In this document: piece after piece, positions 18,394 through 34,293 of the stretch
Layout of the letters: each line of letters opens with the position of its first letter
Numbering within the stretch: position 1 is the first letter of the stretch
Origin: Chloroflexota bacterium
GTDB lineage: Bacteria > Chloroflexota > Anaerolineae > Anaerolineales > Villigracilaceae
Reading direction: 5' to 3'
NCBI GenBank assembly: GCA_016223135.1
Contig: JACRPQ010000004.1
Coordinates: 744,001-808,000, forward strand
DNA: 64,000 nt
Translations under genes and position numbers: made by a program
Notes under the pieces: model-generated
The model's database searches: none
What the model saw: the letters and a program-made list of their open reading frames with translations, nothing else
What the model was told of the DNA's origin: nothing

Positions 18394-18487
18394 AACTCAT
18401 GTTACCTGGTAGCGCGGGATTTCTCTCGCGTTTTCAAGCGATATGAATGTCGCACTACGAAGGAACTGCGTAAGGTGAGCCTATTAA
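18394..18487. repeat. Cloverleaf-type repeat, copy 1 (degenerate)
   Basis: aactcatgttacctggtagcgcgggatttctctcgcgttttcaagcgatatgaatgtcgcactacgaaggaactgcgtaaggtgagc. Confidence 0.8.
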
Positions 18488-19770: not shown

Positions 19771-19856
19771 AACTTACCTTACGCGGTAGCGCGAGATTTA
19801 TCTCGCGTTTTCGGGCGACATAAATGTCGCGCTACGAAGGAACTGCGTAAGGTGAG
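19771..19856. repeat. Cloverleaf-type repeat, copy 2 (best preserved)
   Basis: ACCTTACGC/GCGTAAGGT outer stem, GTAGC/GCTAC, hairpins GCGAGAT-TT-ATCTCGC and GCGACAT-AA-ATGTCGC. Confidence 0.9.
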
Positions 19857-32421: not shown

Positions 32422-33189
32422 ATGGCACACAAACAAGATAAAGCCTCCATGCTCAACCAGGGCGTATTCATCTTCGTCTATCTGGCGATCCTCACCGTCC
32501 TGGAATTTCTCGTGGCGGCTTCCTTCAATTCCACCGCTGTCCTGATCGCTGTCGCCTTGGTTAAAGGGGCGCTGGTGGTGTACTACTACATGCACGTCTA
32601 TAAATTGAGCGCCGACCATGAAGGCGACCACAACTCCTATGAATACAAAACCGGAACAAACCGCCTCGGTCTCTGGCTGTTCCTGATTTCGGATGCCTTC
32701 GTCTTTGGCGGTTTGCTGGTCATGCGCATGAACCTGCTCGGGCTGACCCGCCCCCACCTCAATCAACTCCTAGGCTTGGGCGTGACCTCCATTCTGCTCA
32801 TCTCGTCCTTCTTCATGAACCGCGGCGAGACCATGATCGCGCACGGCGACCGCAAGGGCTTCCTCAACAACACCCTCATCACCTTCCTGTTGGGGCTGGG
32901 CTTTCTCATCGGTGTGGTGTTCGTCGAATGGCGGCTGGCGGCGCACGAGGGACTGACCCCTTCCTCCGGCGCGGCTGGCGCGGTGTTCTACATGATGACC
33001 GGCATGCACGCCTTCCACGTGCTGACCGGGCTGGTCTTCCTCGCCATTGTCTGGATCAACGGACGGCGCGGTCTGTACGACGAGAAGCACTACCCCGTTG
33101 AAGCGGCGGCGGTTTATTGGCACTTTGTGGACGTGGTTTGGATTGTGTTCTACCCCGCCCTCTACCTGGTGGGAACCGCCATTGTGTAG
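32422..33189 (+). CDS. Fused cytochrome oxidase subunit IV-like + subunit III protein
   Basis: N-term FVYLAILTVLEFLVAASFNSTAVLIAVALVKGALVVYYYMHVYKL (COX4-like) then NRLGLWLFLISDAFVFGGLLV...GMHAFHVLTGLVFLAIVW...YWHFVDVVWIVFYPALYL (COX3). Confidence 0.9.
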   Translation: MAHKQDKASMLNQGVFIFVYLAILTVLEFLVAASFNSTAVLIAVALVKGALVVYYYMHVYKLSADHEGDHNSYEYKTGTNRLGLWLFLISDAFVFGGLLVMRMNLLGLTRPHLNQLLGLGVTSILLISSFFMNRGETMIAHGDRKGFLNNTLITFLLGLGFLIGVVFVEWRLAAHEGLTPSSGAAGAVFYMMTGMHAFHVLTGLVFLAIVWINGRRGLYDEKHYPVEAAAVYWHFVDVVWIVFYPALYLVGTAIV

Positions 33190-33227: not shown

Positions 33228-33261
33228 ATCGGGGCGATCCGCGCGGGTCGCCCCGATTTTT
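33228..33261 (+). terminator. Rho-independent terminator after the coxBAC genes
   Basis: ATCGGGGCGA-tccgcgcggg-TCGCCCCGATTTTT. Confidence 0.8.
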
Positions 33262-33273
33262 CGGAGTATCATT

Positions 33274-33383
33274 AACTCATGTTACGCGGTAGCGCGAGAT
33301 TCTTGCCCTGAGCCTGCCGAAGGGCATCTTGCGTTTTTGGGCGACATGAATGTCGCCCTACGAAGAAATTGCGTAAGGTGAGT
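33274..33383. repeat. Cloverleaf-type repeat, copy 3, with a CCCTGAGCCTGCCGAAGGG insert in hairpin 1
   Basis: aactcatgttacgcggtagcgcgagattcttgccctgagcctgccgaagggcatcttgcgtttttgggcgacatgaatgtcgccctacgaagaaattgcgtaaggtgagt. Confidence 0.9.
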
Positions 33384-33390
33384 CATTAAT

Positions 33391-33536
33391 TGATGTTACG
33401 CGGTAGCGCGAGATTCTTGCCCTGCCTGCGCCAGTGCTACAGGCACAGGTGAGCCTGCCGAAGGGTATCTCGCGTTTTCAGGCGACATGAATGTCGCGCT
33501 ACGGGAAAACTGCATGAATAAACTGCATAACATCAG
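33391..33536. repeat. Cloverleaf-type repeat, copy 4, with nested inserts in hairpin 1
   Basis: tgatgttacgcggtagcgcgagattcttgccctgcctgcgccagtgctacaggcacaggtgagcctgccgaagggtatctcgcgttttcaggcgacatgaatgtcgcgctacgggaaaactgcatgaataaactgcataacatcagt. Confidence 0.9.
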
Positions 33537-33681: not shown

Positions 33682-34293
33682 ATGGATCGAAAAATTCTCC
33701 TGGTTGGCATTGGCTCGCTCCTGCTGATAGGCATTGTTGCCGTGTGGGCAATATTTGCCGCAGCGCCGGCGCGCTTTCGCGGGACAACTTACGCCGAACC
33801 GTATCCTGCGGCTCCCGATTTCGTACTGCTGCGGGATGACGGCTCAACGTTCCGTTTGAGCGGGATGCGGGGCAAGGTCGTCCTGCTCTTTTTCGGCTAC
33901 ACCTCCTGCCCGGATGTCTGCCCTACCACGCTGGGAGAATTGAATCAGGCGCTGAAGCAATTGGGCAAAGATGCAGACCGCGTGCAGGTGTTGTTCGTTT
34001 CAGTAGACCCCCAGCGCGACACCCCCGAACGGGTTCAGGAATACGTCAATCACTTCAACCCTAATTTCATCGGCTTGAGCGGCACCGAAACGACATTGAA
34101 CAAGGTTTGGAAGGACTATGGCGTTTTCCGCGAAATTGTCGAAGGGACCTCCGCCCTGGGATACATCGTCAACCACACGGCGCGGGTTACGCTGATTGAT
34201 GCGAATGGCAGCCTGCGCATCTCGTTCGGTTTTGAAACGCCCGTCGAAGACATCGTTCACGACCTGAAATTGATACTCAAGGAAGAGAAATAA
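33682..34293 (+). CDS. SCO1/SenC family copper chaperone
   Basis: APDFVLLRDDGSTFRLSGMRGKVVLLFFGYTSCPDVCPTTLGELNQALKQLG. Confidence 0.95.
   Translation: MDRKILLVGIGSLLLIGIVAVWAIFAAAPARFRGTTYAEPYPAAPDFVLLRDDGSTFRLSGMRGKVVLLFFGYTSCPDVCPTTLGELNQALKQLGKDADRVQVLFVSVDPQRDTPERVQEYVNHFNPNFIGLSGTETTLNKVWKDYGVFREIVEGTSALGYIVNHTARVTLIDANGSLRISFGFETPVEDIVHDLKLILKEEK

Follow-up and report, generated by a model that had tools for sequence, protein, structure and literature searches.

Palindromic units in the hairpin loops of a probable MITE family from an Anaerolineales-type Chloroflexota genome

GTAG repeats are known from Chloroflexi, and several GTAG families have alternative, partly self-complementary loops (PMC3733652). 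GTAG-tagged REP dimers (PMC3733652) are similar to the repeats described here in the GTAG head, the stem of 7-8 bp, the 2-nt loop and the head-to-head arrangement as heterodimers. Bacterial MITEs (RUP, NEMIS/Correia, ERIC and Nezha; PMC10969869) share with them the short and non-coding character, the terminal TIRs, a target duplication of constant length, the dispersed copies and a hairpin interior. REPINs with RAYTs (PMC3116915, PMC2817692) also have two inverted hairpins in a cloverleaf-like form with compensatory stems, and REP-targeting IS (IS1397, ISKpn1, ISPsy8 and ISPpu9; PMC1525189) are alike in that palindromic repeats are targeted at a fixed point.

The window analysed, a stretch of 64,000 nucleotides, contains four cloverleaf copies. 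They are probably members of a single MITE family, very small mobile DNA elements in an Anaerolineales-type Chloroflexota genome, with a probability of about 0.7, given jointly for the whole explanation preferred here. The genome was available as a 19-contig assembly, and the nearest relatives found were MAGs labelled Anaerolinea sp. TT109_57_62 (G017, the sister species) and Chloroflexi bacterium CFX11. For each DNA search 40 candidates were scored and the sequence was read around the matches; collections of copies are thus lower bounds, and family-wide samples were taken among the matches listed first.

Copies in the window

The interior of the element is GTAG-h1-TTTTCRG-h2-CTAC, that is, two GTAG-tagged hairpins placed head-to-head. 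Two inverted units, each with its head beside a stem of 6-13 bp, were found as in GTAG-type dimers; the head is GTAC or GTAAC in other genera. The features of the four copies are as follows, with P1 denoting a 23-nt palindromic unit.

18396-18479, + strand: MITE copy 1, diverged; h1 short and imperfect, GCGGGAT-TT-CTCTCGC
19773-19856, + strand: MITE copy 2; h1 GCGAGAT-TT-ATCTCGC, h1 and h2 both short; target duplication TGATTAA
33269-33275: left target duplication of copy 3, TCATTAA, 7 bp
33276-33382, + strand: MITE copy 3, 107 bp; TIRs CTCATGTTACGC (33276-33287) and GCGTAAGGTGAG (33371-33382)
33294-33332, + strand: h1 of copy 3; arms GCGAGAT (33294-33300) and ATCTTGC (33326-33332), with the P1 unit between them
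33302-33324, + strand: P1 unit of copy 3, 23 nt, CTTG-CCCTGAGCCTGCCGAAGGG, at the dyad centre of h1 (T^T)
33340-33357, + strand: h2 of copy 3, GGCGACATGAATGTCGCC
33383-33389: right target duplication of copy 3, TCATTAA, 7 bp; copy 4 begins immediately after it
33390-33536, + strand: MITE copy 4, 147 bp; left TIR TTGATGTTACGC, right TIR GCATAACATCAG
33408-33473, + strand: h1 of copy 4; arms GCGAGAT (33408-33414) and ATCTCGC (33467-33473), with a 50-nt insert between them
33416-33465, + strand: P1 unit of copy 4, interrupted; parts 33416-33424 and 33452-33465
33425-33451, + strand: 27-nt insert that interrupts the copy 4 P1 unit; one genomic occurrence, fold within the chance range
33481-33498, + strand: h2 of copy 4, GGCGACATGAATGTCGCG

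A preliminary description of this DNA had confined the nested insertions to 33301-33475, which covers the inner parts of copies 3 and 4 alone. The short loop that it attributed to copies 1 and 2 is exact in copy 2 but imperfect in copy 1. The insert of copy 3, CTTGCCCTGAGCCTGCCGAAGGG, has 23 nt and separates the two T of the h1 loop; the C that follows is a T-to-C change outside the insert. Copy 4 has a small duplication at its right end (AAACTGCAT...AAACTGCAT) and no clear target duplication. Copies 3 and 4 are located in the spacer from the COX3 gene (32422-33189) to the SCO1/SenC gene (33682-34293), and a similar tandem layout was seen again at L051/L166, identical in both species. Additionally, an almost perfect inverted repeat of 15 bp, with T after it, is present at 33228-33257, after COX3 and upstream of the MITE pair. 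It is likely a terminator, and was absent from a consensus terminator scan probably because the repeat has no loop.

Ends, target duplications and distribution of the MITE

The alignment of 48 copies gave TIRs of 12 bp, CTCACCTTACGC / GCGTAAGGTGAG, with the variants CTCATG and CTGATG / CATCAG. Immediately outside them an exact direct repeat was read, of 7 bp in 25 of the 48 copies and of 8 bp in four, against 0.2 expected with re-paired flanks, and the target consensus is approximately TTATTAA. The mapping of junctions proposed in the preliminary description revealed duplications at the MITE ends (29/48), but none is visible at the dyad junctions of P1. The 58 full-length copies read are non-coding, dispersed and mostly 84-147 bp long, which leaves no room for a transposase gene. 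The elements would have moved in trans through their 12-bp TIRs, with formation of the 7-bp target duplication.

No autonomous transposon with these TIRs was found at TIR sites away from the listed cores, and PF01609 is practically absent. Where TIRs stood apart from any listed MITE core (17 sites read), the interiors were MITE-like or other hairpins, and the sole DDE_Tnp_1 match was weak and partial. The same TIRs were also observed around very different interiors (GTGCGACGCAC; CCCCTCTCCCAGCGGGAGAGGGG) or around a single h1 (L264 1988-2041; L274 2038-2154; L275 2001-2085; L260 1957-2016), as if they captured whichever hairpins stand between them.

The 23-nt unit and its nesting

P1 has the form NYYG-CCCTGAGCNTGNCGAAGGG and occupies the exact centre of h1, where it reads CTTG-CCCTGAGCCTG[T/C]CGAAGGG or a near variant between both T of the loop. 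In the window the palindrome occurs twice, where 0.01 sites are expected, so that the earlier reading of the copy 3 insert as a palindrome is well founded, and at 29 sites in the genome, against two for the reversed pattern. P1 was found in h1, at the same junction, in at least 13 dispersed MITE-type copies of this genome and at least 10 of the sister genome G017; 20 of 22 junctions read enclose exactly 23 nt, one encloses 21 and copy 4 encloses 50. A search of the available literature for the letters of P1 found no match.

Several P1-bearing MITEs have their own 7-bp duplications (L065, which is copy 3, L073, L110 and L123). At the site of the sister genome orthologous to L106 the P1-carrying MITE is wholly absent, which indicates that P1 came with the MITE. 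In the family's other genera P1 is enclosed by GCAAGAT/ATCTTGC, GCGGAAT/ATTCCGC, GCAAAAT/ATTTTGC, GCGAAAT/ATTTCGC and GTGAGAT/ATCTCGC stems, usually with an h2-like hairpin next to it and without MITE ends. Since the junctions are identical in dispersed copies and in the sister species, and the stems of other genera are compensatory, each copy is understood to have transposed with P1 already inside. Judged from these comparisons, P1 travelled within the MITE and no insertion took place at the window locus itself. A short h1 was also found in a MITE copy of another genus (CFX11, L159), and thus both states of h1 are old.

Among 20 distinct sequences with P1, 98.2% of the h1 stem cells are paired, in comparison with 21-58% when the partner is slid, and three outer pairs are changed on both sides (12 cells; 0/500 shuffles as high). 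This covariation identifies the outer hairpin with its P1 loop as a real, long-lived unit. It would also be expected if the hairpins were kept for a function, as an RNA or transcription signal or a nucleoid protein site, the inserts being tolerated neutral length changes and their enrichment survivorship; the placement of inserts so that the arms stay intact and the position of copies 3 and 4 between the COX3 and SCO1 genes agree with such a role. On the other hand, transposition substrates are equally expected to covary and a scan for promoter and terminator signals found none, so we regard a retained function as somewhat unlikely.

In copy 4 the 23 nt of copy 3 are interrupted after CCCTG by 27 nt, exactly as first described. 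This inner insert had also been taken for a hairpin, which is not supported: its fold has z = -0.68 and 55 of 200 shuffles fold equally well, the insert alone has no perfect 5-bp stem, and the arms that had been named, CCTGCGCC/GGCACAGG, contain a mismatch. No second genome copy was found at up to 3 mismatches, and the flanking repeat is at most 2 nt (TG). By its nested position the insert must be younger than P1 in copy 4, or else have been precisely lost elsewhere; it is treated here as a single event.

Further nesting was read in another repeat of this genome, U. Its hairpin occurs empty, GCACGGACG-TTCA-CGTCCGTGC (L038), with CCTG-CCCTGAGCATGCCGAAGGG, i.e. P1 (L104), and with CGCCG-GGCTGAGTTTATCGAAGCC-C in the middle of this P1 (L002, L007, L066 and L259). 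The three states independently back the view that palindromes have recurrently entered the loops of palindromes. P1 within P1 was also found in another genus, g16 (L204), with a different inner palindrome in which CCC/GGG replaces the GGC/GCC ends, and half-site tests detected P1 within P1-like halves in 3 of 140 contexts against 0 in reversed order.

Stretches of repeat U, about 150-250 bp long, were additionally observed between the h1 arms (L267 1708-2016) or the h2 arms (L259 2001-2319; L270 2001-2230) of MITEs. Two copies of repeat U contain P1-bearing MITEs (L073 and L110), whose positions in U differ by a few bases, so that the MITE occurs inside U while U also occurs inside MITE loops.

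Loop preference was measured on a sample of 97 P1 sites, in eight of which the 23-nt unit is immediately enclosed by a stem of 6 bp or longer, against 0.49 expected with mispaired flanks. The excess is about 16-fold, or about 10-fold with the recurring MITE h1 taken as a single case; four of the eight cases are MITE h1, and the distinct host hairpins are about 4-5. With a looser loop geometry the numbers were 10/97 against 3, the excess being clear solely with the exact 23-nt geometry. Of the insert types, 4/7 lie at exact hairpin centres (p ~0.0008), a rough count of insufficiently independent items. The host arms with P1 at their centre are unrelated: GCGAGAT, GCACGGACG, P1 itself and GGCGGGATG. 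The suggestion that loops are preferred targets is in part upheld by this excess, the repeat U series and L204, but the great majority of the P1 sites lie outside any hairpin and larger inserts in L125 and L046 interrupt hairpin arms, with duplications of 9 bp (ATCTCGCGT) and 10 bp (CAGGCGACAT) that coincide with one arm. The excess may reflect survival, as inserts in arms wreck the hairpin, and not targeting.

Loop alleles, origin of the inserts and comparison with known systems

The h1 alleles (short or P1) were found in all four combinations with the alleles of h2, the spacer and the right end, indicating that modules were exchanged among MITE copies or changed repeatedly. With module exchange and separate transposition, copies 1-4 cannot serve as a time series, and short before long is not derivable from them. 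The relative order deduced from the three loop states in the preliminary description is therefore retained for the 27 nt, set after P1 by nesting, but not as a stepwise series at a single locus. At orthologous MITE sites this genome and the sister genome have one common pair (L051 = L166, both short); the others are empty or unrelated.

Three alleles of h2 were distinguished: standard, P2 and 'b'. P2 has GAACCCCCTTCGGGGACGATG in the loop (L100, L119, L263, L266, L268, L269 and L272). The 'b' allele (GACATGAACCCGCC; GACATRACCCGCC) has ACCC in common with the filled P2 and keeps the start of P2, with the 3' arm missing, and by its letters looks like a deletion product of the P2 loop. In L113 (945-1043) h2 has a perfect 15-nt tandem duplication (TTTTCAGGCGACATA), either slippage or the excision scar of an insert like that of L046.

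A long, P1-bearing h1 could instead be ancestral, the short loops being deletion derivatives from which loop palindromes were removed during replication. P1 in h1 with compensatory stems in several genera, outside the MITE, is in agreement with this order, as are the P1 copies (at least 10) of G017, some of them filled in both loops (L241, L291, L299 and L305), the many identical copies of the short form, pointing to a recent burst, and the 'b' allele, in which ACCC of P2 is retained and the 3' arm is missing, the outcome expected of a deletion. Against it, short h1 is present in another genus (CFX11, L159), repeat U independently has an empty hairpin, and frame divergence is alike (long 0.099, short 0.085); moreover, the TT centre is a clean T^T site, and an exact, repeated deletion of 23 nt would need a signal, of which none is visible. 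Deletion as the general origin of the short loops is considered unlikely. Still more improbable is that recombination between repeats (gene conversion or template switching) spread the loop content, P1 having entered very few loops and never been targeted. Such exchange fits the occurrence of all four combinations of alleles at many pairs of sites and the h1/h2 hybrid arms of L259 (5' GCGAGAT, 3' ATGTCGC), but homologous exchange leaves unexplained the same central 23 nt in hairpins with unrelated arms.

Under the preferred explanation, small palindromic units would insert at the dyad centre of hairpin loops and leave no visible duplication; P1 would have entered h1 of an ancestral element, the hairpin loop of another repeat and its own loop, and the composite elements would then have spread as MITEs, swapped modules and at times lost loop content. 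P1 itself may be mobile, with entry at extruded or single-stranded hairpin tips by a Y1/HUH-type transposase reaction or by template switching. That P1 is an independently mobile 23-nt unit, entering extruded hairpin loops at the dyad, its own included, without target duplication, so that palindromes grow by stepwise nesting, is advanced only tentatively. None of the five Y1 transposase genes of the genome is flanked by P1 or h1/h2; their flanks carry other hairpins, and no enzyme is thus assigned to P1. In L032 two copies of GCACGGGGGTTCATCCCCGTGC (~1254 and ~1416), a hairpin that is also part of repeat U, flank a Y1 transposase gene, likely a RAYT-REP pair.

These data bear on how REP-like palindromes arise, vary their loops and spread. 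Two unrelated repeats of the same genome show hairpins in the empty, the once-filled and the twice-filled state, with exact junctions, so that loop insertion and loop deletion are directly testable at orthologous sites. If the mobility of P1 is true, this 23-nt guest would be one of the smallest units for which spread by insertion is shown.

In comparison with bacterial MITEs, the TIR and the 7-bp target of this family were not matched here to a named family, and the interior hairpins have exchangeable nested loops. The REPINs differ in that no RAYT gene flanked by h1/h2 was found in this genome and in that movement of the MITE leaves 7-bp duplications. Unlike in the GTAG-tagged REP dimers, the dimer is here inside an element with TIRs and target duplication, and one of its loop variants is a 23-nt palindrome that is also dispersed on its own. 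Finally, whereas REP-targeting IS are the guests in the described cases, the guests in this family have 23 nt and 27 nt and no transposase gene, and the 23-nt P1 is palindromic, without visible duplication, and self-entering.
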